Below are positions 5,282 through 62,555 of a stretch of 64,000 nt of DNA, in pieces. This DNA is from Liolophura sinensis (lineage: Eukaryota > Mollusca > Polyplacophora > Chitonida > Chitonidae): assembly GCF_032854445.1 (NCBI RefSeq), contig NC_088306.1, forward strand, positions 1,674,501 to 1,738,500. Direction: 5' to 3'. The stretch's first letter is position 1. The number at the start of each line of letters is the position of its first letter. Under the pieces are notes generated by a model. It was not told the origin of the DNA. It did not search any database and worked only from the letters and a program-made list of their open reading frames with translations. The position numbers were made by a program, and so were the translations under genes.

Positions 5282-6076
5282 ACTGGTTTCCAGCTGTAAG
5301 TGTGATGGGGAATTTAGCCAGGGGTGTCGCTACTACTCCCTGCCTAAACAACGATATCACGGATGTCTAGACTGGTTTCCAGCTGTAAGTGTGATGGGGA
5401 ATTTAGCCAGGGTGTCGCTACCACTCCCTGCCTAAACAACAATATCACGGATGTCTAGACTGGTTTCCAGCTGTAAGTGTGATGGGGAATTTAGCCAGGG
5501 GTATCGCTACCACTCCCTGCCTAAACAACGATATCACGGATGTCTAGACTGGTTTCCAGCTGTGTGATGGGGAATTTAGCCAGGGGTGTCGCTACCACTC
5601 CCTGCCTAAACAACGATATCACGGATGTCTAGACTGGTTTCCAGCTGTAAGTGTGATGGGGAATTTAGCCAGGGGTATCGCTACCACTCCCTGCCTAAAC
5701 AACGATATCACGGATGTCTAGACTGGTTTCCAGCTGTAAGTGTGATGGGGAATTTAGCCAGGGGTATCGCTACCACTCCCTGCCTAAACAACGATATCAC
5801 GGATGTCTAGACTGGTTTCCAGCTGTAAGTGTGATGGGGAATTTAGCCAGGGGTGTCGCTACCACTCCCTGCCTAAACAACGATATCACGGATGTCTAGA
5901 CTGGTTTCCAGCTGTAAGTGTGATGGGGAATTTAGCCAAGGGTATCGCTACCACTCCCTGCCTAAACAACGATATCACGGATGTCTAGACTGGTTTCCAG
6001 CTGTAAGTGTGATGGGGAATTTAGCCAGGGGTGTCGCTATCACTCCCTGCCTAAACAACGATATCACGGATGTGTA
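5282..6076. repeat. Nine-copy 89-bp tandem array
   Basis: Units start at 5282, 5371, 5459, 5548, 5633, 5722, 5811, 5900 and 5989. Most are exactly 89 bp, with one of 88 and one of 85 (loss of AAGT at about 5563). Copies are nearly identical, differing mainly at GGTGTCGC/GGTATCGC. Because 89 is not a multiple of 3, each unit shifts the frame and short ORFs of about 61 codons stop every two units, so it is not coding. Each unit has TGGTTTCCAG followed two bases later by GTAAGTG, an acceptor-like and donor-like pair. It ends 260 bp before the galaxin-like start codon. Confidence 0.95.
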
Positions 6077-6335
6077 GACTCGGTTTCAGCGGTTAAGGCA
6101 GCTTTACTGTCTTAAAAATATCTGATTTCACAAAGGTATGTGCTTGTGACATTAAAATTTCGCAATATATAGAACCGGTTTTACACAAAGACTTTTGTTC
6201 TCAAAGGCGTTATCTGTCCTAGATTTCCCCGTGTCTCCCACATTTGCCAGAGATTTCTCAACGCACACAACGTCTATCACACTTGCCAGAGACAACCCAA
6301 CCTCCGTACAAGTTTTTACCCCTCAGCTTATCATC

Positions 6336-9300
6336 ATGGTCAGTGTTAGACATCAGGGGGTTGGCCTGGTGATATTCGCCTTGAGTTTGTCCAGTCTGGA
6401 TGCAGGTAGGCAACTAGGACATATTTTTTGCGATGGGTACTTTTCATTGTTCATTTTTTGTATTTTGACCGCAGGATAGATTATTACAATATCAAACTAA
6501 AACTGCATTCAGCTATATGCCTTCCAAGCGGTCTGTATACACAGTTTTCAGCGTCAGCTCTCTAAAACTTCCCACTTTCTCCCATCACAGACCGTTCAAA
6601 TCTATGAGAAACAAAATCTGTACGAGCAAAAAGTAGGCGTAATACATATTAAATAATAAACTAACCAAACGAGTGAATTGCGGGTAACATGACGTCATGA
6701 TCTTGAATCTGGTCTAATTTGTTTCCCCTGCAAGATATACTTACGTCACACATTGCCATCAAAAATCGAAAATTTGCAATTTTTCTCCATATTTGTAGGT
6801 CACGTGACAGAAAATTAATACAGCTGTAAAGTTCAAAATTGCTGAGTGGAAGGGACTATATATGTACTGTATGTGTGCTGAAACTCTGTGAGCTGTCTTA
6901 ATAAATACAGGATATACAGTGCTTCAAAATTTGACAAAAGACCGGGCCAATTTTCTATATATTGACACATTTTCCAAGTGTATGTGTATATAATGCATAT
7001 ACACTATGTTCTTGTCTAGGATGAATGTAGAAATATTGTAGGTATGCCCCCTGAGAGTTTTACGTTCTGAACCCGAATCCGGTCTTTTTTTTCCTGCGGT
7101 CTATATTTTTGTCGCAAACTGCGATCAAATTGCCAAAAATCTCTATTTCATCCATTTTTACATGTCACGTGTCTAAAAACTGTTACAGCTGTAAAGGTGA
7201 AAATAACTGAGTGCAAAGCACAGTACATGTACTCTGTGTTGGAAACGGTTGATCTGTGTTAAACGAAAGGGGACTTGAACGCTTCAAATATTGCCTAAAG
7301 GTCGATTTACTCCGCTTGACACATCTACATACAAATCATATACAGTGTGCTTACAATGCACTAATGGCTACGAAGAATGTAGGCCTTCTAATTAAGTTGG
7401 TTATGTATCTATACATGGACACCATTAAGGTAACCCAAATTGACACCGTATAGGCTGGCAATACCGGTTTAAACCCCGGCATCGCTGCTTTAGCAGCTAT
7501 GTTTTTTGTTTGTTTTTTTTTTCTTAATGTTTTTTTGTCATAACCTGAAAACTATACCAAGTACAAAAACAACTCTTATAGATTTGTAATTCGAACGTCA
7601 AGCAGTTCTTAACAGTGTGTTTATTTAATAATTTTTTTACGCTTAACCTATTTTTAAGCTAATTTCATTTGTCAGTTACAACACAACTTGCATACCAAAC
7701 AAAACATTTTTGTGCAGTATAGGTACGGCGATCCACCTAAAACTTGCAAGTTAATTTTCATCCAAAGATCACTAGCCCATTTGCGGAAAAAGATAGTTTA
7801 ACTTTGTCAATAAAATTCAAAATGGCTACTAAATCACGTGACTGGCCAAACAGTATTAACCGTCAAAAGCTGCTTGATACGTTGGCCATTAAAGATGTTG
7901 TTTTTTCTACCTTTACCTTTACCTTTACCGGTTTTAGAGATATTACTATTTTAGGAGCTAACTATAAAAGAAATAACAAGTTTTTAAACGCATTTTAATG
8001 GCAAAACCATCGGCTTACACATTTCTCGACCGATTTCCATCAAACTTTTAATCCTAATACCCCCAGCAATCTTCTACATACCTATTAATCATCAATGCAA
8101 TCCGATCAGCGGTTCGGGAGAACAAGTTTTTCTTAGATTTCCATACTGCTCCAATATTGCCGAAAAGTGGGTCACAAGTGGGTAAAGTTTTACACTCCAG
8201 CATGTAGCCCAAGCGATTGGGTAATAAACATGTGTAATAAAATTAACAGCTGTAAAAACGGAAAAAAACAGCTGTCAGAGCAGACAAAAATAGTCTGATC
8301 GAGAACAAAGGTCTAATAAGTCATTTAAGTAGCATGTCAAGTAATTTTCTTCATTTACAAGTACCTGTTGTAAACAGAAAAATACCAGATGTTACAACTC
8401 TTTAGTACGATGTTTCAAAACACAATGTGTCGTATTGTCAAGGGAAATAGCTCAAGGGCTAAAAGCCCACTTGGAAGCCTTCGATGTCTCCTTCCCCTAA
8501 AGCAGTGATCTCGTTTTAACTGTTGAGGCTATGGTCGAACCAGCTCCCGATGTTTCCACTCATGCAGCCAGTAATGGGGCCATTCAGATACTTGTCTAAA
8601 GGCAGGCGTTTTCTAATTAAAACATCAAAAACTATTAAACAAAGACATCCGCATGTTTACGCTGTTTATTTATTTCACTGACCACAAAGTCCAGATTGTT
8701 TCACAACTGAACATTGGTACTTTGTCAATGAAATCGAGAGTTTTGATCTGTCCTTTACGTTAGGCGGTTTGCCAGATTGTGTGAGGCGGGTACATGTAGC
8801 CCCAAAGCTTGAAAACCTTGAACATATCCGCCATATGGCGTTTTTTCGAATCTGTCTTGTAAACAGAACGGATGAAATCTTATGCATATACATGTTTGAA
8901 GAGCGTTTTGTTTTCATAGGTGTGTAAAAGTCAAAACCAATAATTCTTTATTCATATTCGTATGTTGTTTTTGTTTCCTGTAGGATCTTGTGGAACATCT
9001 TCCTACAATCCAACTTTTAACATCTGCTGCAAAGGGGTTATCAAGCCTAAGGGCTTTAATGGGGCCTGCTGTGGCACCAACGTGTATGACTCCAAGTGGA
9101 ACATATGTTGTAACGGCATCATCCGGTCTAAGGGCTTTAATGGGGCCTGCTGTGGCACCAAGGTGTATGACTCCAAGTGGAACATATGTTGTAACGGCGT
9201 CATCCGGTCTAAGGGCTTTAATGGGGCCTGCTGTGGCACCAAGGTGTATGACTCCAAGTGGAACATATGTTGTAACGGCGTCATCCGGTCTAAGGGCTTT

Positions 9301-9558
9301 AATGGGGCCTGCTGTGGCACCAACGTGTATGACTCCAAGTGGAACATATGTTGTAACGGCGTCATCCGGTCTAAGGGCTTTAATGGGGCCTGCTGTGGCA
9401 CCAACGTGTATGACTCCAAGTGGAACATATGTTGTAACGGCGTCATCCGGTCTAAGGGCTTTAATGGGGCCTGCTGTGGTACCAACGTGTATGACTCCAA
9501 GTGGAACATATGTTGTAACGGCGTCATCCGGTCGAAAAGCCTAAACTGGACCTGTTGA
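6336..9558 (+). CDS. Secreted galaxin-like di-cysteine repeat protein (2 exons)
   Basis: Joined from exons 6336-6405 and 8984-9558; 213 residues after the start methionine. Exon 1 encodes MVSVRHQGVGLV followed by a hydrophobic stretch ending in SSLDAG, a signal peptide, and ends in GCAG|GTAGG. Exon 2 follows TTTCCTGTAG|GA. The split codon G+GA is glycine, so the phase fits exactly. The mature part is a tandem of a 27-residue unit of the form NVYDSKWNICCNGVIRSK plus GFNGACCGT, with two CC pairs per unit. Spaced CC pairs with a YD between them are the hallmark of galaxins, secreted matrix proteins first found in coral skeletons and present in other invertebrates. The units are almost identical even at silent sites, so the exon has been homogenised recently. 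A matrix or defence role is inferred; the exon structure and signal peptide are read directly. A decayed copy of exon 1 lies at 18736-18808. Confidence 0.8.
6700..7385. repeat. Diverged tandem duplication inside galaxin-like intron
   Basis: Two adjacent copies of roughly 330-360 bp. Paired blocks are GTCACGTGACAGAAAA (6800) with GTCACGTGTCTAAAAA (7164), TACAGCTGTAAAG in both (about 6822 and 7183), and GAATGTAG at the ends (7022 and 7375). Divergence is substantial and no frame is conserved. The rest of the intron (7386-8983) holds a short CTTTAC repeat near 7910-7930 and nothing else I recognise. Confidence 0.5.
9000..9535 (+). repeat. 81-bp coding repeat of the galaxin-like exon
   Basis: About six units of 81 bp; AACATATGTTGTAACGGC starts at 9100, 9181 and so on at exact 81-bp steps. 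Differences are single bases (AACGTG/AAGGTG, ATC/GTC). The first unit, near 9000-9050, is diverged and acts as the unhomogenised edge. The antisense strand is open for 295 codons across the array, which is a by-product of repeat length, not a gene. Confidence 0.95.
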
Positions 9559-48197: not shown

Positions 48198-48440
48198 GGG
48201 GGCCTACGTGGTTAGCGCGCTAGCGCAGCGTGATGACACATGAGCTTCTCACCAATGCGGTCGCTGTAAAGTTCAGCTCATGCTGGCTTTCTCTCTGGCC
48301 GTGCGTGGGAAGGTCTGCGGCAACCTGCGGATGGTCGTGGGTTTACCTGGGCTCTGTCCGCTTTCCTCCCACCATAATGCTGTCCGCCGTCGTATCATAA
48401 AACATTCTTGCGTACGGCTTAAAAATAAATAAATTTTATT
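48198..48440 (+). repeat. SINE family A, near full length
   Basis: CCTACGTGGTTAGCGCGCTA (A box), AATGCGGTCGCTGTAAAGTT, TTTCCTCCCACCATAATGCT and AAAATAAATAAA are all present in order. Confidence 0.8.
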
Positions 48441-49315: not shown

Positions 49316-49704
49316 CACCAGTTTAAAAAAGATCACACATATGTTAATATACAGTAGGCCTAAATATGATAAATTGTATACAACAGTAGTCAGACATATG
49401 TGAATACAAGAGATACAGATTAACAGTAACAAAATACTTGAAGACAAAACCGCCACCTCCCCCCCACCCCAAACAAATTAATGTAATAATTAAAACTTAT
49501 AATTTATAACTGCAATGTTGGATTTATAATTCCGAATTTGGGATATGTATGGTTAACTGTTGTTTGCTGGCTGAACGAAGTTGTCTTTCATGATGGTTTT
49601 TCCTTTTATAAAGATTGGTCATGTAATCTGGGTAGAAACCATTGAGAAATTTGTAGAAAGCGGTGGCTTTGTGGATTTTCACTGTGTTAAAGAGTTCAAA
49701 TAGT

Positions 49705-49830
49705 TCAGGTCTGTCGGCAACCCGTGGATGGATGTGGGTTCCCCCGGGCTCCTGCGGTTTCCTCCCACCACAATGGTGGTCGCCGTCTCATAAGTGAAAC
49801 ATTCTTGAGCATGGTCTTGTTAGGCCTACC
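49705..49830 (+). repeat. SINE family A 3' part
   Basis: GGCAACCCGTGGATGGATGT, GGTTTCCTCCCACCACAATG and AAGTGAAACATTCTTGAGCA. 49831-50626 has no feature I recognise except the pICln 5' flank. Confidence 0.65.
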
Positions 49831-50707: not shown

Positions 50708-53700
50708 ATGGTTGTGATTCTAAGATCGTTCCCTCCTCCCACGGATGGTGTGCGACTCAATCAGAGCGGCACGCAGGCGTTTATCGGAGATAAATCCTAC
50801 GGCAGTGGATCGTTGTACATCACAGAAAGGTAAGACTGGTTACGTGTGACTAGTTATCAACATGGCACTGTCCTCACTGCTATGGTTTTACTCTCCATGC
50901 CTTAGTCCTATACATTTATATTAGGCTGTTGTAAAGACTAGGTTGTGTTTACGTTTAGCTTTCGCATCACTACTTATGTCACACATTCAGTCTGCCCAGA
51001 GTGGGGCTTGCTAATTATGGAGGAAACCCTTTCCAGACGTAGTTCGAACAAATTTACATGCGCATTCTACCATTACCATGTTTATCTGCCTTAAACACGT
51101 TTAAAAAACACATTCTCTCATGACAGCTGAATTGGTCAAGTAGTGGAACTACAGACCCAACATGATGTCTGAAGGAAGTTCGAATCCACAGCTTCTCACA
51201 ATGAACCAAGAGGTAGTACAATGAAGTGAAAATATGTACCACAACTAGGTGATCACTGAACACTCATGGATGACAGTATCACGAACTCTTTGCGTATGCT
51301 GAATGTTTCTTATTCATTGTTTAGCCAATGAAAAGTCAGTAAAAACATGTGACCATGGAAAAGAAAATGATATCAATAAGAATGTGGAAACCAACTCTTA
51401 AACCCGAACCTAGTCTTTACAAAGCCCACAACTCCGCTCTTTGCTGTTTGAATGTTTGTTATTGATACCTGGTGAGAGCACCAGACCCCTGTAACCAGGA
51501 AACAGTACAGGCATAATGAACTGAAAGGGAACTTAATAGACTACTGCACCGAGAGTAAAACCAGAGCATCGATGACAGCATGATATTTGACAAAGGGGAC
51601 ACTCATTGCATTTAGATGGACTTATGGCAGTTTTCGCTGTAGCTTAAAGTCAGGTTTGTCTAGTTTACACCGTGTAATCCGGTTTTCACCATTCCATCTA
51701 ATCACTGTCATATAAATAAAAAATTCTTGAGCGTGGGTTAAACACTAAGCAATAAGCAAATCAATCAGTATTTTAACAACTCATGTTATGCTTAATTTCA
51801 GCTGTGTGTCATGGATAAGTGATGCTGGGCAGGGTTTTACTCTGGAGTACAAGAAGATCAGCTTGCACGCAGTGTCACGGGACCTGACGGCCTTTCCACA
51901 TGAGTGCCTCTACCTCATGGTGGAAGGAAAACTGCCAGGTAACTCCTGCATGTTATTTTCTGATTGGGACACTCATGGGATCAGTGTCTTAGTTTGAGTA
52001 TATCTGATATGAAATGTACAAAACCACTGTATAGTGTCAAAAACCATCATGTCCTGATTAAAGAAAAAAACATATCCTGATGAAAAACCCACTCTATCCT
52101 GAGTAAAGAATAAACCATACCCTGGTAAAAAGCACCATACCCTGACAAAACACCATATCCTGACAAAAACACCATATCCTGATGAAAACCACCATATTCT
52201 ACAGACATGAGAATTTACTGTCTTTTACTGGGGCAAGGGGACTCAGTTTGGCAAGAAGAGCACTCGTGTAATAATTGATTTGACATACATGTATTTTCCC
52301 GTGCCGGGTGTCGATCACTTCAACTGATCACTGTGTTGACAAATTTGTAGTACCGTATGTGGGCATGAATTTCAGTTATGCATCTAAGCAACATTTATTT
52401 ACTTTTCAAATAAATGGTTAAAAAGTTTTGGCAATTATTATGTCTTTCGATGTGAAGGCTATTGATGGCAGTGTCAAAAATGAGTGGAACTGGAATTGAC
52501 TTGAGTGCACTGTGGTCAGCACATAAGACTGTTACCCAGAGGTGCTCGGTTCAATTCCCAGTTGATACTGAAATACTGACCCGTCATCATATATGCGACA
52601 TACCCTCTGAGTAGGGCATGAAACCACAATAGTCAGTGTAATTAAACGCACTGATAAAACTAACAACTGAAAATTTGATACTTTTTGAAAAAAAAAAAAA
52701 GATGATATATTTTATGTAGTGAGTAATCAAGTGAGATTCAGTAAAATCATATTTTCCTGTCCTCTTTGAGTACGGCGTAAAACATCAATCAAATAAATAA
52801 ATAAATATCCTGACAAAAACCACAATATCCTGACAAAACCATCATATCCTGACAAAACCACCATATCCTGATGAAAACCACCATATCCTGACAAACCTAC
52901 CATATCCTGACAAACCTGCCATACCCTGACAAACCTGCCATATCCTGATACATCCATCATATGCTGATGAAAACCACCATATCCTGACAAACCACCATAT
53001 CCTGACAAACCTGCCATATCCTGACAAACCTGCCATATCCTGATAAATCCATCATTATCAGGATGAAAACCACCATATCCTGACAAACCTGCCATATCCT
53101 GATAAATCCATCATATGCTGATGAAAACCACCATATCCTGATAAATCCATCATATGCTGATGAAAACCACCATATGCTGAACCCTTTCATCAGGTTCATA
53201 TGTTCCAGATCCAGATCACCACCAAAGTGTTATGCCCAAGCCCACCTATCCACGGAAGTCCATACAAATCTGTGAATAACTTATTCTGTGAGAAATACAT
53301 CCTCCAGTCCTTGACAGAGGTAGTGAATAAAATCTGTGCCATATCCTTATGGTATATGAGAACAGATTCAAAGAGGACATAAGAAAATTATGGTTGTTTG
53401 TTTACAGAAGAATCTGCAGCAGGAGATGAATCCTCGTCCTCTTCATCAGATGAAGATGATCAGGTGACCACTGACGTACGCTTCGTGCCCGCTGATAAAG
53501 GCACTTGTAAGTACACTACACGGCTGACGCAGCGCATTGTGCCCGCTGATAAAGGCACTTGTAAGTTAACTACACGGCTGACACAGCACATTGTGCCCGC
53601 TGGTAAAGGCACTTGTAAGTAGACCACACGTCTGATGCAGCGCATTGTGCCCGCTGATAAAAGCACTTGTAAGTACACTACACGGCTGGTGCAGCACATT

Positions 53701-56700
53701 GTGCCCGCTGGTAAAGGCACTTGTAAGTACACTACACGGCTGACACAGCACATTATGCCCACTGATAAAGACACTTGTAAGTACACTACACGGCTGACAC
53801 AGCACATTGTGCCCACTGATAAAGACACTTGTAAGTACACTACACGGCTGACACAGCACATTGTGCCCACTGATAAAGGCACTTGTAAGTACACTACACG
53901 GCTGGTGCAGCACATTGTGCCCGCTGATAAAGGCACTTGTAAGTACACTACACGGCTGACACAGCACATTGTGCCCGCTGGTAAAGGCATTTGTAAGTAC
54001 ACTACACGGCTGACACAGCACATTGTGCCCGCTGATAAAGGCACTTGTAAGTACACTACACGGCTGGCGCAGCGCATTGTGCCCGCTGGTAAAGGCACTT
54101 GTAAGTACACTACTCGGCTGACACAGCACATTGTGCCCGCTGATAAAGGCACTTGTAAGTACACTACACAGCTGACACAGCACATTGTGCCCGCTGATAA
54201 AGGCACTTGTAAGTACACTACACAGCTGACACAGCACATTGTGCCCGCTGATAAAGGCACTTGTAAGTACACTACACAGCTGACACAGCACATTGTGCCC
54301 GCTGATAAAGGCACTTGTAAGTACACTACAGGGCTGACACAGCACATTGTGCCCGCTGGTAAAGGCACTTGTGAGTACACTACACGGCTGACACAGCACA
54401 TTGTTCCCGCTGGTAAAGGCACTAGTAAGTACACCACACAGCTGACACAGCACATTGTGCCCACTGATAAAGGCACTTGTAAGTACACTACACAGCTGAC
54501 ACAGCACATTGTGCCGACTGATAAAGGCACTTGTAAGTAGACTACACGGCTGACACAGCACATTGTGCGCGCAGATAAAGACACTTGTAAGTACACTACA
54601 CGGCTGACACAGCACGTTCTGCCCGCTGATAAAGGCACTTGTAAGTACACTACACGGCTGACACAGCACATTGTGCCGACTGATAAAGGCACTTGTAAGT
54701 AGACTACACAGCTGACACAGCACATTGTGCCGACTGATAAAGACACTTGTAAGTACACCACACGGCTGACACAGTACACTGTGCCCACTGATAAAGGCAC
54801 TTGTGAGTACACTACAGGGCTGACACAGCACATTGTGCCCGCTGGTAAAGGCATTTGTAAGTACACTACAGGGCTGACACAGCACATTGTGCCCGCTGGT
54901 AAAGGCACTTGTGAGTACACTACACGGCTGACACAGCACATTGTTCCCGCTGATAAAGGCACTAGTAAGTACACCACACAGCTGACACAGCACATTGTGC
55001 CCACTGATAAAGGCACTTGTAAGTACACTACAGGGCTGACACAGCACATTGTGCCCACTGATAAAGGCACTTGTAAGTAGACTACACGGCTGACACAGCA
55101 CATTGTGCCCGCAGATAAAGACACTTGTAAGTACACTACACGGCTGACACAGCACATTTTGCCCGCTGGTAAAGGCATTTGTAAGTACACTACACGGCTG
55201 ACACAGCACATTGTGCCCGCTGATAAAGGCACTTGTAAGTACACTACACGGCTGACGCAGCGCATTGTGCCCGCTGGTAAAGGCACTTGTAAGTACACTA
55301 CACAGCTGACACAGCACATTGTGCCCGCTGATAAAGGCACTTGTAAGTGCACTACACGGCTGGCGCAGCGCATTGTGCCCGCTGCTAAAGGCACTTGTAA
55401 GTACACTACTCGGCTGACACAGCACATTGTTCCCGCTGATAAAGGCACTTGTAAGTACACCACACAGCTGACACAGCACATTGTGCCCACTGATAAAGGC
55501 ACTTGTAAGTACACTACACAGCTGACACAGCACATTGTGCCGACTGATAAAGGCACTTGTAAGTAGACTACACGGCTGACACAGCACATTGTGCCCGCAG
55601 ATAAAGACACTTGTAAGTACACTACATGGCTGACACAGCACGTTGTGGCCGCTGATAAAGGCACTTGTAAGTACACTACACGGCTGACACAGCACATTGT
55701 GCCGACTGATAAAGGCACTTGTAAGTAGACTACACAGCTGACACAGCACATTGTGCCCACTGATAAAGACACTTGTAAGTACACTACACGGCTGACACAG
55801 TACACTGTGCCCACTGATAAAGGCACTTGTGAGTACACTACACGGCTGACACAGCACATTGTGCCCGCTGGTAAAGGCATTTGTAAGTACACTACACGGC
55901 TGACACAGCACATTGTGCCCGATGATAAAGGCACTTGTAAGTACACTACACGGCTGACACAGCGCATTGTGCCCGGTGGTAAAGGCACTTGTAAGTACAC
56001 TACACGGCTGACACAGCACATTGTGCCCGCTGATAAAGGCACTTGTAAGTGCACTACACGGCTGGCGCAGCGCATTGTGCCCGCTGGTAAAGGCACTTGT
56101 AAGTACACTACTCGGCTGACACAGCACATTGTGCCCGCTGATAAAGGCACTTGTAAGTACACTACACAGCTGACACAGCACATTGTGCCCACTGATAAAG
56201 GCACTTGTAAGTACACTACAGGGCTGACACAGCACATTGTGCCCGCTGGTAAAGGCACTTATGAGTACACTACACGGCTGACACAGCACATTGTGCCCGC
56301 TGGTAAAGGCATTTGTAAGTACACTACACGGCTGACACAGCACATTGTGCCCGATGATAAAGGCACTTGTAAGTACACTACACGGCTGACACAGCGCATT
56401 GTGCCCGGTGGTAAAGGCACTTGTAAGTACACTACACGGCTGACACAGCACATTGTGCCCGCTGATAAAGGCACTTGTAAGTGCACTACACGGCTGGCGC
56501 AGCGCATTGTGCCCGCTGGTAAAGGCACTTGTAAGTACACTACTCGGCTGACACAGCACATTGTGCCCGCTGATAAAGGCACTTGTAAGTACACTACACA
56601 GCTGACACAGCACATTGTGCCCACTGATAAAGGCACTTGTAAGTACACTACAGGGCTGACACAGCACATTGTGCCCGCTGGTAAAGGCACTTATGAGTAC

Positions 56701-59700
56701 ACTACACGGCTGACACAGCACATTGTTCCCGCTGATAAAGGCACTAGTAAGTACACCACACAGCTGACACAGCACATTGTGCCCACTGATAAAGGCACTT
56801 GTAAGTACACTACACAGCTGACACAGCACATTGTGCCGACTGATAAAGGCACTTGTAAGTAGACTACACGGCTGACACAGCACATTGTGCCCGCAGATAA
56901 AGACACTTGTAAGTACACTACACGGCTGACACAGCACATTGTGCCCGCTGGTAAAGGCATTTGTAAGTACACTACACGGCTGACACAGCACATTGTGCCC
57001 GCTGATAAAGGCACTTGTAAGTACACTACACGGCTGACGCAGCGCATTGTGCCCGCTGGTAAAGGCACTTGTAAGTACACTACACAGCTGACACAGCACA
57101 TTGTGCCCGCTGATAAAGGCACTTGTAAGTGCACTACACGGCTGGCGCAGCGCATTGTGCCCGCTGGTAAAGGCACTTGTAAGTACACTACTCGGCTGAC
57201 ACAGCACATTGTGCCCGCTGATAAAGGCACTTGTAAGTACACTACACAGCTGACACAGCACATTGTGCCCACTGATAAAGGCACTTGTAAGTACACTACA
57301 GGGCTGACACAGCACATTGTGCCCGCTGGTAAAGACACTTGTAAGTACACTACACGGCTGACACAGCACATTGTGCCCACTGATAAAGGCACTTGTAAGT
57401 AGACTACACGGCTGACACAGCACATTGTGCCTCCTGATAAAGGCACTTGTAAGTACACTACACGGCTGACACAGCACATTTTGCCCGCTGATAAAGGCAC
57501 TTGTAAGTAGACTACACGGCTGACACAGCACATTGTGCCCGCAGATAAAGACACTTGTAAGTACACTACACGGCTGACACAGCACATTGTGCCCGCTGAT
57601 AAAGGCACTTGTAAGTACACTACACGGCTGACACAGCACATTGTGCCGACTGATAAAGGCACTTGTAAGTAGACTACACAGCTGACACAGCACATTGTGC
57701 CGACTGATAAAGGCACTTGTAAGTAGACTACACAGCTGACACAGTACACTGTGCCCACTGATAAAGGCACTTGTGAGTACACTACACGGCTGACACAGCA
57801 CATTGTGCCCGCTGGTAAAGGCATTTGTAAGTAGACTACACAGCTGACACAGCACATTGTGCCCGCTGATCAAGGCACTTGTGAGTACACCACACGGCTG
57901 ATGCAGCACATTGTGCCCGCTGATAAAGGCACTTGTAAGTACACCACACGGCTGACACAGCACATTGTATCCGCTGATAAAGACACTTGTAAGTACACTA
58001 CACGGCTGACACAGGACATCGTGCCCGCTGGTAAAGTACGCACTGTACTTGATACAGTAGTTATTTTATGCCGCACTTACAAATATTTCACCTAAATGAC
58101 ATCGGAAACATCTTCATTAACTGTATCTTTCTCCTCACTTTATTATTCTACATTTAAATTGAGGGCTTCATTTTTGTCATTATTAACAGGATTTAGATGG
58201 ATTTTTTTTCTTAATCTAGTCCAAATCTGTTCCACCAAGTAGTTGCTCTAAGTGAAGATGTGTATGTTTATAACAGTTTGATGTAACAAATTGTGGGAAT
58301 TTCACGGTGTGAAATATTGTGTATTCTACTATAATAAAACTGTGAACTTGACTGTGACTTTTTTAAGGAGTTTCTCCAAGTTTTGGATTATGAGACTCAT
58401 TACGAGTCTGATTCCCTGATTCCCATCCTGTGGGCGCCCATTCCACAATTTCTGTTTCTGACTTGTCAAAACTGAAAAACTCTTTACGATGCTTACTTTT
58501 TGATACTAGTTGTTGAAATGTAGTCACATCATTCTCTAGGCCAAAATTTCAATTTCCAAAGCCCAACAGTAAGCTTTAAGATCATGTTTCAAAATTTGAC
58601 TTGAGTCAGAAATGGTTTTGTGGAATCGTTATTTGGCTCTGGGATCGCGTAGCAATCTAAGACTTGTGACAACATTTCAGATCACTTTAAAATTGTTATT
58701 TCGTATGTAACAAGTTCTAAATATTGTTTGACAAAATAAATTCTGGGTAAGTTGTTGTAAAATAAATTTTGAGCTAAAATAACAGAAAGGAACATACAGT
58801 ACCAAGTTTGATGATGGAAATTTTGATTTTAGTCTAAGATCACTTTGCAATCCCGGGGAAAGATATCTAAATCTCCTGCTCTGAATGCTGCTGTCATCAA
58901 AATGTACCTACATACAGTCTCAAATCGTCTGTATTTCTTTCATTGGCCAAGCAGTCATGACGATGGGTAACATATTTGTGTATCTTGTCATTTGATGGTA
59001 ATTTCAGTGGATGCTATGTTTGAGGCGATGTCAGACTGTCAAGCTTTACACCCAGATGATGAGGACTCCTTCTCTGATGGTGACGATGGTAAGCATGGTA
59101 ACGAGTCTGTACGCAAGCGGGATGAAGGCCATGACTTTATGAGTGGTGATCAAATAATCAATACTATAACATTCAAATTGAGAAGTAAATGTTGTCTTTC
59201 TCCACAAAATCTGACGCGTCATGTAAGGAAATCCCGGTTTTTCAGGGTCCATTGTGCTTTCAAATTTGGAGACGTGTTTGATGGAAGTGTACTAGGTTAG
59301 ATGTACACATAATCTGTGTATCTCTAACTGTGCCCCATCCCCCCCCCCCCCAATCTGTATTAATTAACTAGACAATCACTGTACAAGTTGAAACCTGACG
59401 ACTGTGTGAAACATCAGTCCCATGATACACTCAACTAGTGGGTTAATGGTTGTCTTTCATCACAGCAACACACGAGTCGCAAGTTCAGATTTGGTCTTTG
59501 TGAGGAAATTTGTACATTCCCCGGGTCACACTACTTCTGAGTCCTTGCCATCAATCAGTATGCATGGCTGTTTTCACTGTCTTTCGTTCATTATAGACCA
59601 CTTGTCTTCAACCAGTATGGTGTGTACATCTGCACATGTACATCACATTTGGGAAAGTTTCTCAGTAACCTGCCAAAGGTCAGTGGTTTATGCCGGGCAT

Positions 59701-62555
59701 CCTGGTTTCTTCTAGTGATCTGACACTCTTGAGTATGGCATCGAAGAACACAGAAATAGAATATATGATATCAATAAATCATATTACATATTTAAACATT
59801 CTCCACAGATGGGTATTATGAAGATGCAGAAGAGGCTGAGCTGACTCAGCAAGGGCAGGCAACCCTGGACAGACTAGAGGAGATGTTTATGGCCAGGGGG
59901 GATAACCCACATGTTCATCCAAACGGACAAATCCAGCTGGAGGCCCCTGGACCAGGTGAGACAGAATTATGATGTGGATGTGAGAAATGGTGTGATTAGG
60001 TACAGGTACATGTGTGATGTCAGGACCAGGTGAGGCAGTATTGTGATGTGGATGTGAGAAATGGTGTGATTAGATACAGGTACATGTGTGATGTCAGGAC
60101 CAGGTGAGACAGTATTGTGATGTGGATGTGAGAAATGGTGTGATTAGATACAGGTACGTGTGTGATGTCATAACCAGATGAGACAGTATTGTGATGTGGA
60201 TGTGAGAAATGGTGTGATAAGATACAGGTACATGTGTGATGTCAGGACCAGGTGAGGCAGTATTGTGATGTGGATGTGAGAAATGATGTGATTAGATACA
60301 GGTACGTGTGTGATGTCATAACCAGATGAGACAGTATTGTGATGTGGATGTGAGAAATGGTGTGATAAGATACAGTTACATGTGTGATGTCAGGACCAGG
60401 TGAGGCAGTATTGTGATGTGGATGTGAGAAATGATGTAATTAGATACAGGTACGTGTGTGATGTCATAACCAGATGAGACAGTATTGTGATGTGGATGTG
60501 AGAAATGATGTGATAAGATACAGGTACATGTGTGATGTCAGAACCAGGTGAGGCAGTATTGTGATGTGGAAGTGAGAAATGGTGTGATTAGATACAGGTA
60601 CACATGTGATGTCAGGACCAGGTGAGGCAATATTGTGATGTGGATGTGAGAAATGGTGTGATTAGATACAGGTACAAGCGTGATGTCAGGACCAGGTGAG
60701 ACAGTATTGTGATGTGGATGTGAGAAATGATGTGATAAGATACAGGTACATGTGTGATGTCAGGACCAGGTGAGACAGTATTGTGATGTGGATGTGAGAA
60801 ATGGTGTGATTAGATACAGGTACATGTGTGATGTCAGAACCAGGTGAGACAGTATTGTGATGTGGATGTGAGAAATGATGTGATAAGATACAGGTACACG
60901 TGTGATGTGAGTACCAGGTGAGGCAGTATTGTGATGTGGATGTGAGAAATGGTGTGATAAGATACAGGTACATGTGTGATGTCAGAACCAGGTGAGGCAG
61001 TATTGTGATGTGGAAGTGAGAAATGGTGTGATTAGATACAGGTACACATGTGATGTCAGGACCAGGTGAGGCAATATTGTGATGTGGATGTGAGAAATGG
61101 TGTGATTAGATACAGGTACAAGCGTGATGTCAGGACCAGGTGAGACAGTATTGTGATGTGGATGTGAGAAATGATGTGATTAGATACAGGTACGTGTGTG
61201 ATGTCATAACCAGGTGAGACAGTATTGTGATGTGGATGTGAGAAATGGTGTGATGAGATACAGGTACATGTGTAATGTCAGAACCAGGTGAGGCAGTATT
61301 GTGATGTGGATGTGAGAAATGGTGTGATTAGATACAGGTACAGGTACATGAGTGATGTCAGGACCAGGTGAGACAGTATTGTGATGTGGATGTGAGAAAT
61401 GATGTGATTAGATACAGGTACATGTGTGATGTCAGGACCAGGTGAGACAGTATTGTGATGTGGATGTGAGAAATGGTGTGATTAGATACAGGTACAGGTA
61501 CATGAGTGATGTCAGGACCAGGTGAGACAGTATTGTGATGTGGATGTGAGAAATGGTGTGATTAGATACAGGTACAGGTACATGAGTGATGTCAGGACCA
61601 GGTGAGACAGTATTGTGATGTGGATGTGAGAAATGGTGTGATTAGATACAGGTACATGAGTGATGTCAGGACCAGGTGAGACAGTATTGTGATGTGAATG
61701 TGAGAAATGGTGTGATTAGATACAGGTACATGTGTGATGTCAGGACCAGGTGAGACAGTATTGTGATGTGGATGTGAGAAATGATGTGATTAGATACAGG
61801 TACGTGGATGTGAGAAATGATGTGATTAGATACAGGTACAAGCGTGATGTGAGTACCAGGTGAGGCAGTATTGTGATGTGGATGTGAGAAATGGTGTGAT
61901 TAGATACAGGTACATGTGTGATGTGAGAACCAGATGAGACAGTATTGTGATGTGGATGTGAGAAATGGTGTGATTAGATACAGGTACATGTGTGATGTCA
62001 GATCCAGGTGAGACAGTATTGTGATGTGGAAGTGAGAAATGATGTGATTAGATAATTGGAAGCACATGACGACAGTTTTGCTGTATTTCATGTAGCAGTC
62101 TTGCAAGATTTTTTGACAGCACAATCATTTTAATGACATGGTTTTATTTCGTGCTTGGGAAGGTGTGGCAGCCACTTGCGGATGGTCATGAGTATTCAGC
62201 GGGCTCTGCCCGGTTTCCTTCCACCATAATGCTGGTCACCTTCGTATATGTGAAATATTCTTGCATATTGTGTAAAGTTCCATTAGAATAAAAACATGGA
62301 CATCACAATACTGGCTGGCATGTAAGTGAAAAATTCTTGAGTGTTGCGTGTAAACAACGATCAAATGAATCCATAAATAAATGAATGCTGTGTTTCCTGT
62401 CTTGGCATATGGTTATTCTGGTCTGACAGATGTCTGTAGTCAAATCCTGTATAATGCGGGGAGCTAATGAACAATTTAAATGTCTCTTGGCAGTGCCCGA
62501 GCAGGGATCAGAAGAACCTATGGACCAGGGTCAATTTGAAGATGCCGACGGGTGA
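50708..62555 (+). CDS. CLNS1A: Methylosome subunit pICln (six exons)
   Basis: Exons 50708-50829, 51802-51938, 53408-53506, 59008-59088, 59809-59955 and 62494-62555; all junctions are GT/AG and phases agree (2,1,1,1,1), giving 215 residues (human about 237). pICln is the cytosolic chaperone that holds Sm proteins and hands them, with PRMT5 and WDR77, to the SMN complex during snRNP assembly. Visible family marks are RSFPPP near the N-terminus, GSGSLYITES then SWISD, LEYKKISLHAVSRD (PH-like fold), an acidic loop (DESSSSSSDEDD), RFVPADKGTLDAMFEAM, CQALHPDDED, TQQGQATLDRLEEM and the conserved terminal QFEDAD. The exon 3/4 junction (ACT T|TG GAT) gives TLDAMF, as the family expects. Introns 3 and 5 start with minisatellites that duplicate their own donor sites. 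An ATTAAA (62574) lies 19 bases after the stop. Confidence 0.95.
51690..51770 (+). repeat. SINE family A tail fragment in pICln intron 1
   Basis: CATATAAATAAAAAATTCTT, GAGCGTGGGTTAAACACTAA and GCAAATCAATCA. It ends about 30 bp before the exon 2 acceptor. Confidence 0.45.
52028..53185. repeat. Short tandem repeats in pICln intron 2
   Basis: Two blocks (about 52028-52205 and 52805-53185) of a 19-24 bp motif built on CCATATCCTGACAAACCTG with ATGAAAACCACCATATCCTG variants. They are separated by a SINE-like element (52497-52660) and a family-A SINE tail (52765-52808). This array starts about 90 bp after the exon 2 donor and does not contain it, unlike those in introns 3 and 5. Confidence 0.85.
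52497..52660 (+). repeat. tRNA-like SINE (family D)
   Basis: GTGGTCAGCACATAAGACTG, then TCGGTTCAATTCCCAG, a clear B box of a tRNA promoter, followed by a body ending TAATTAAACGC. Not a folded tRNA gene. A single copy in the window. Confidence 0.45.
53485..58036 (+). repeat. 54-bp minisatellite carrying the exon 3 end and splice donor, 84 periods
   Basis: The first unit starts at 53485, inside exon 3, and the last, truncated one at 58021; 4536 bp is exactly 84 x 54. Checkpoints at 54025, 55051, 56131 and 57211 are all in register, so I see no net indel. Each unit is 22 bp of exon 3 (GTGCCCGCTGATAAAGGCACTT) followed by intron start GTAAGTACAC...CAGCACATT. Nearly all units keep GTAAGT or GTGAGT; two (about 56259 and 56691) lose the GT. 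Sense frame is VPADKGTCKYTTRLTQHI per unit, with TAG stops in about 12 units. Higher-order copies exist: 55921 and 56353 begin matching blocks 432 bp (8 units) apart. Both long antisense frames are by-products. Confidence 0.97.
53506..53622 (+). promoter_or_regulatory. Three successive in-frame 5' splice sites
   Basis: Donors CACTT|GTAAGT occur with GT at 53507, 53561 and 53615. The first gives the family-standard protein. The second or third would add 18 or 36 residues (QRIVPADKGT type) in frame, because the unit is 54 bp. The sense frame stops at TAG 53620-53622, so use of any later donor would put a premature stop in the mRNA. Which donors are used is unknown. Confidence 0.6.
58037..59007 (+). 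other. Non-repetitive remainder of pICln intron 3
   Basis: It contains a degraded SINE tail in reverse (TTTTATGCCGCACTTACAAA, 58065) and, at 58500-58640, a block shared with 17060-17162 (CAGTAAGCTTTAAGATCATG, TTGACTTGAGTCAGAAA). The acceptor TTTCAG ends at 59007. Confidence 0.5.
59665..59775 (+). repeat. Degraded SINE family A in pICln intron 4
   Basis: AACCTGCCAAAGGTCAGTGG, GCCGGGCATCCTGGTTTCTT and CACTCTTGAGTATGGCATCG follow the family-A order with many changes. Just upstream, a C-run lies at 59339-59350. Confidence 0.4.
59949..62056 (+). repeat. 74-bp minisatellite carrying the exon 5 splice donor, about 28 copies
   Basis: ACCAGGTGAG occurs at the real exon 5 donor (59951) and again at 60025, 60099 and on at mostly 74-bp steps to about 62010. 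The unit is GGACCAG|GTGAG(A/G)CAG, then TATTGTGATGTGGATGTGAG, AAATGGTGTGATTAGATAC and AGGTACATGTGTGATGTCA. Only seven exonic bases are included. Some units have small insertions (an extra AGGTAC) or lose part of the unit (about 61800). Read-through of the first donor meets TGA within six codons. Confidence 0.95.
62150..62385 (+). repeat. SINE family A, tail duplicated
   Basis: GGATGGTCATGAGTATTCAG, GCCCGGTTTCCTTCCACCAT and TGTGAAATATTCTTGCATAT, then a second tail-like stretch at 62318-62385 (AAGTGAAAAATTCTTGAGTG, CCATAAATAAATGAATG). It lies between the 74-bp array and exon 6. Confidence 0.65.

Follow-up and report, generated by a model that had tools for sequence, protein, structure and literature searches.

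Tandem 5′ splice sites in a pICln gene: a probably tolerated minisatellite of the mirage kind

The DNA stretch analyzed here (the window, 64 kb) contains the gene for pICln, at whose third exon a large tandem array of 5′ splice sites begins (array 1). The gene lies on the forward strand, and its model of six coding exons was placed by hand using splice sites and homology. The coding part of exon 1 (50708–50829) starts with the ATG at 50708 and was, like the rest of the model, supported by homology. Exon 2 (51802–51938) is supported by homology including a Voldacs match, exon 3 (53408–53506) by splice sites and homology, and exon 4 (59008–59088) by homology and the family search. Exon 5 (59809–59955) ends with GGACCAG, and the coding part of exon 6 with the stop codon was placed at 62494–62555. 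The 215-residue product of this model matches the Pfam family Voldacs (E-value 1.8e-34) and solved pICln chains (E-value 4e-45), which confirms the gene identity proposed in a preliminary description of the window. A family search of the genome resulted in two pICln exon matches, both inside the window, one of them exon 2 (C12:1726300-1726434). As far as this search goes, pICln is present in a single copy, and therefore its splicing has to succeed.

Tandem Repeats Finder (TRF) identified array 1 as a single array at 53485–58036 with a period of 54 bp, 84.3 copies, 91% matches and 0% indels. A unit-by-unit walk from 53485 gave 84 complete units, all in exact 54-bp register and without indels, followed by a 16-nt stub. 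The unit combines 22 nt from the end of exon 3 with 32 nt from the start of intron 3; the array starts inside exon 3, and the donor GT is located at 53507. Both methods thus bear out the preliminary description of 84 tandem 54-bp copies which start in exon 3 and combine 22 exonic with 32 intronic nucleotides. Intron 3 (53507–59007) has a length of 5501 nt, of which the array makes up about 4.5 kb. Its authentic 5′ splice site, GTAAGT (53507–53512, within unit 1), is assigned from the gapless protein homology given below. The donor hexamer was GTAAGT in 76 units, GTGAGT in 6 and ATGAGT in 2, and the nine-letter donor is identical in 66 of the 84 units. Nearly all units therefore carry GTRAGT, as had been stated, but the 82 such sites include the authentic one, so that 81 rather than about 82 further donors follow. 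Outside array 1 (about 59.4 kb of the window), GTRAGT was found 34 times on the forward and 23 times on the reverse strand; with so many units keeping the register, chance need not be considered. The pentamer TACGC occurs at 53477–53481, beginning 8 nt before the array, and again at 58037–58041, directly after its end.

Array 1 comprises 48 distinct unit sequences. Among lags of 1 to 24 units, exact unit repeats are most frequent at 8, 12 and 20 units, which is the mark of block duplications, and units 45–52 and 53–60 recur exactly as blocks. Such exact recurrence, together with the error-proneness of tandem arrays in general, would also be expected if the array were an assembly artefact of a repetitive region. 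Given the 48 distinct sequences, the exact 54-bp register throughout and the like structure at other loci, we regard an artefact as extremely unlikely, although the number of copies may be in error.

Within unit 1, the exonic half encodes the conserved pICln residues VPADKGT, and therefore the exon seeded the array and not the reverse. A search of the 609 Mb genome with a three-unit query gave 38 matches among the best-scored candidates, all within array 1. These results support the earlier proposal that the array was seeded from the end of exon 3 and its own 5′ splice site. An insertion of a dispersed repeat was rejected, since among these best-scored candidates the unit was matched solely within array 1. 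Over its last 15 nt, the "intronic" half of unit 1 is similar to the exon directly upstream; a similarity as good was reached by 24 of 2000 shuffles and at 3 of 430 other positions in the exons. This is suggestive only, but the exonic share of the seed may be about 36 nt and the intronic share about 17 nt, rather than 22 and 32 nt.

A second donor-seeded array of the same gene, absent from the preliminary description, was found in intron 5. Array 2 (59949–62054, forward strand) consists of 28 units matching CCAGRTGAG and is seeded on the exon 5 donor, with GGACCAG as the exonic part followed by GTGAG. The donor GT is intact in 24 of the 28 recognised units. The spacing is 74 bp in 23 of 27 steps, 80 bp in three and 110 bp in one. 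The GC skew is opposite between the two arrays. In intron 2, units of about 19 bp form two further arrays, neither with a seeded donor (52039–52197 and 52805–53180); counting these as well, tandem repeats are present in three of the five pICln introns.

The junction of exons 3 and 4 aligns without a gap to the solved pICln chains ("rfvpadkgtldamf" versus "rfvpsdksaleamf"), and therefore the ancestral protein corresponds to the product of the first donor. The unit length of 54 is a multiple of three. Although 72 of the 84 units have an open frame, 12 contain an in-frame stop, the first being a TAG in unit 3, so that the frame runs open through donors 2 and 3 only. The 43 substitution types comprise 10 synonymous, 31 nonsynonymous and 2 stop changes, compared to 41, 115 and 6 possible ones. 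There is no coding constraint in the units, and a coding repeat was rejected on account of this and of the stops. Cassette exons within the array are also unlikely, since none of the three AGs examined in the consensus unit has a pyrimidine tract (pyrimidine share 0.4–0.6). A generator of isoforms would require appreciable use of the downstream donors, giving pICln with 18 or 36 extra residues. The unit length and the two open donors would fit this, and the cited passages on the human IFI6 (6-16) minisatellite report that it offers several donors, of which two downstream repeat units are used for isoforms (PMC4526556). The stops from unit 3 onwards, the lack of coding constraint and the main period of array 2, which at 74 bp would shift the frame, speak against it, and we consider this explanation improbable.

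For the occurrence of similar arrays in the genome, motif matches were counted; they include several per array and are clumped within arrays. Three AGGTRAGT motifs at 15–45 bp spacing were matched 1881 times compared to 943 times for the reversed motif, and at 46–76 bp spacing 2651 times compared to 1285, whereas single sites were nearly equal in number (50,967 and 47,888). By match counts, donor motifs are thus about twofold enriched in arrays. The acceptor-like motif TTTKCAG gave 2831 array matches versus 1131 for the reversed motif; since its single sites are also in excess (346,100 versus 171,243), the array enrichment is about 1.2-fold. The first 100 matches listed on C1 were grouped by hand into 18 donor loci in 6.71 Mb. 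The reversed-motif control yielded 14 loci in 17.45 Mb of C1, or 13 after removal of one simple repeat. The resulting rates were 2.68 and 0.74 loci per Mb (binomial p = 0.0004). Extrapolated from this one stretch of one chromosome, roughly 1,600 loci would exist genome-wide for one strict motif and spacing, of which only part starts at an exon (6 of the 18 sampled).

A family-supported exon end at the start of the array was found in 9 of 27 further donor-bearing arrays. In the first listing, 6 of the 18 loci have a family-matched open frame leading into the first donor. The match extends to the last residue before the donor for L016 and L017 (Mot1-like chains, E-values 2.6e-18 and 3.8e-11) and for L026 (2-oxoglutarate dehydrogenase, 4.6e-20). 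It reaches the last but one residue for L010 (ankyrin, 3.2e-7) and L025 (C-terminal domain of Fe-hydrogenase, 1.8e-12), and it ends 7 residues short for L014 (core-2 branching enzyme, 1.5e-6). In the second listing, 3 of 9 further loci have a family-supported exon, namely L041 (antistasin domain, 4.2e-8), L046 (DUF3535, 7e-6, just under its cut-off) and L048 (prominin, 6.1e-9), the latter two without a match to a solved structure. In L014, L041, L046 and L048 the family match ends 3 to 13 residues before the donor. Two of the nine could not be judged, as L042 overruns the fetched stretch and L047 takes up almost all of it. In L040 and L044 an open exon is plausible but has no convincing match to a family, and L043 and L045 have no plausible exon. 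An acceptor-like array (TTTGCAGGTATG) at C1:2080217-2084686 lies directly before the donor array L044 on the same strand.

The loci L016, L017 and L046 are located within about 21 kb on one strand (C1, about 4.178–4.200 Mb) and are probably three donor-seeded arrays of one BTAF1/Mot1-like gene. We take L016 and L017 to be BTAF1 from the Mot1-like hits and general knowledge of this protein, and presume the same for L046 from DUF3535, such knowledge and its position.

The control loci were judged by eye, with a Pfam search for L036 alone, and they are not free of donors, since 4 of the 13 consensus units (L030, L036, L037, L039) contain GTRAG on one strand. Five of the 13 were not fully seen: both array edges (L028, L039) or one edge (L035, L038) were not covered by the fetched stretch, and an edge of L031 lies 25 bases from the end of that stretch. 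In L036, the array starts, by eye, at what appears to be the end of an exon, with GTGAGT, and would be an unplanned mirage (a minisatellite across an exon-intron boundary, see below); its peptide had no Pfam hit, and it was counted against the contrast with the donor loci. On this basis, the share of exon-abutting arrays does not differ significantly between donor loci (6 of 18) and controls (1 of 13; p = 0.19).

The higher density of donor loci on C1, the excess of AGGTRAGT triples at nearly equal single-site counts and the small enrichment of the acceptor-like motif would fit a hot-spot, at which 5′ splice sites actively promote the birth of minisatellites, for example via co-transcriptional structures at the exon-intron step. 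Such a mechanism would be compatible with a tolerated minisatellite in pICln. However, survivorship alone can produce the excess, neither the exon-abutting share nor a set of 65 arrays unselected by motif (see below) separates donors clearly, and the opposite GC skew of the two pICln arrays means that they have no common R-loop-like bias. Moreover, arrays of period 15–200 cover 15% of the window, and therefore some span junctions by chance. An active hot-spot appears rather unlikely to us. The broader statement that minisatellites arise preferentially at 5′ splice sites in this genome, leaving hundreds to a thousand or more introns with tandem near-identical donors behind one authentic donor, is put forward only tentatively. 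If true, such introns would form a natural experiment across the genome on why the spliceosome selects the first among many equivalent sites.

Taken together, array 1 is likely to be a minisatellite of the mirage type which is tolerated and spliced from its first donor. A tandem duplication would by chance have spanned the boundary of exon 3 and intron 3, and the array would then have grown through later block duplications within the intron. We infer that the spliceosome pairs the upstream exon with the nearest, i.e. first, donor; the later donors would thus be intronic and mostly ignored, and the array carried at little cost. If donor 2 or 3 were used on rare occasions, the protein would gain 18 or 36 in-frame residues, while use of donor 4 or beyond would include the TAG of unit 3 and end the protein early. 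Support comes from the anatomy, the gapless protein match, the single-copy gene, the unit unmatched elsewhere, the second array and the family-supported exons at other loci. Further support is given by the lack of coding constraint, the AGs without pyrimidine tracts and the statement on splicing in amphioxus cited below. The over-representation of donor motifs in arrays, with hardly any of acceptor-like ones, is read as tolerance because an extra downstream donor leaves the exon intact. Among the three readings offered in the preliminary description, tolerated noise is thus the best supported. Donor choice is hard to study where sites differ in strength. Since the nine letters of the site are identical in 66 of the 84 donors, they cannot account for the choice, which must depend on position. 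Clean splicing would directly show that position, through exon definition or the order of synthesis, takes precedence over the strength of a site.

Several observations weigh against this reading or its emphasis on donors. Among the first 18 arrays, 12 have no family-supported exon: a Pfam search of L012, L015, L020 and L024 gave no convincing hit, and the other eight, with short open frames only before the donor, were outside that search. The 65 arrays unselected by motif, taken from the window (including the two pICln arrays) and the 18 loci, showed no clear donor enrichment when scored with a donor matrix against reversed units (30 and 17 at a threshold of at least 6 bits, 16 and 13 at 7, 10 and 8 at 8, 4 and 5 at 9, 3 and 1 at 10). 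Donor arrays in two of the five introns of one gene suggest more than scattered chance, but the window was chosen for its array. Finally, the donor hexamer ranks joint first for conservation among the 54 six-nucleotide stretches of the unit and was hit by 2 substitution types compared to 4.8 expected. This could be claimed for function and is at most a weak hint of upkeep, with several other stretches nearly as conserved.

The conservation of the hexamer would also count in favour of the proposal that the array is a platform for the U1 small nuclear ribonucleoprotein, which would shield the long intron from premature polyadenylation or retain the transcript. The 82 GTRAGT sites in 4.5 kb and the AATAAA hexamers downstream in intron 3 (58333, 58735 and 58761) would be in line with it. 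These hexamers, however, are all found in the part of intron 3 not taken up by the array (971 bp), and 8 AATAAA/ATTAAA occur in intron 2, which has no donor array. An intron 3 without the array would measure about 1 kb and would hardly require such protection. Together with the near-equal conservation of other stretches, this leaves the U1 platform of the preliminary description very unlikely, and nothing was found that supports it.

Elsewhere in the window, nine 89-bp units at 5282–6087, most with CAGCTGTAAGTG, could form a donor-bearing array ahead of a gene at about 6330. This array with CTGTAAGTG was not counted, as no exon is shown beside it and its donor score is below the reversed control (6.2 versus 9.3). 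Six near-identical 81-bp units at 9047–9533 read as a cysteine-rich 27-residue repeat, which we take to resemble galaxin. Copies of an interspersed element resembling a short interspersed nuclear element (SINE) are located at about 48200–48440 and 49700–49820 and occur also in L015 and L032. A text search of the literature for a SINE-like string gave no paper.

The host is most likely a mollusc, since eight Haemocyan_bet_s domains were found in a row on C8, a family which we take to be molluscan. This result renders an amphioxus origin of the DNA unlikely. In 14 control genomes there were no matches for Haemocyan_bet_s or for the pICln family; as even pICln was without a match, they are uninformative on which animals carry either family.

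It had been stated that no named class of such elements exists, which does not hold: the mirages of amphioxus and the human IFI6 minisatellite are the same kind of element. The Adh3 mirage of amphioxus was reportedly described by Canestro in 2002 and the IFI6 (6-16) minisatellite by Turri in 1995, the repeats of the latter being, it is said, 12 bp long. According to the cited passages, mirages are minisatellite-like tandem duplications spanning an exon-intron boundary, known from amphioxus globins and Adh3, with units of 10–160 bp of which many but not all carry splice signals, and with length instability (PMC3087553). Further amphioxus mirages are described, in the passages cited, for PGBD5 and TnC (PMC3902484). 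Among the listed matches for literature on minisatellites, splicing and exons, only these two amphioxus papers used the term "mirages", and no report of mirages in molluscs was found in the literature searched, which covers few subscription papers. The passages on a minisatellite in an abalone intron do not say that it spans a splice site. Those on minisatellites of C. elegans (PMC4039745) do not mention splice donors or donor sites and were not used.

Judged by their sequence, both pICln arrays appear to belong to the mirage kind, which is already described but little known, and array 1 would be a very large case. In both, tandem units combine an exon end with an intron start, the first unit lies at the authentic junction, the splice signal is retained in many units though not in all (82 of 84 and 24 of 28), and the unit lengths of 54 and mainly 74 bp are within the reported range.

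The model of Rogers, cited in a passage of PMC3087553, explains intron gain through tandem duplication of AGGT. It shares with pICln the tandem duplication carrying splice signals, but yields a new intron, whereas in pICln an existing intron is lengthened at its 5′ end, with no new intron shown. IFI6 has likewise a minisatellite with tandem splice donors at an exon end. Two of its downstream donors are reported to be used for isoforms, whereas for pICln such use would be allowed by the frame for donors 2 and 3 only. The amphioxus mirages are similar in being tandem duplications across an exon-intron boundary with signals in many though not all units. In the passages cited, they are found at both exon ends (the acceptor in BflGb6, the 3′ exon boundary in BflGb9), whereas both pICln arrays are located at donors. 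BflGb6 is there given as having 6 and 3 copies in two haplotypes, compared to the 84 copies of array 1 in one assembly. The former occur in a cephalochordate, the latter most likely in a mollusc, with two arrays in one gene and further loci in one genome. For amphioxus, the authors suggest in these passages, from Adh3 data and reverse-transcription polymerase chain reaction on globins, that regular splicing is not disturbed (PMC3087553), whereas in pICln it is read from protein homology across the junction. With pICln, the range of mirages would reach beyond cephalochordates to a mollusc, and this would suggest that they follow from minisatellite-rich genomes and not from one lineage.

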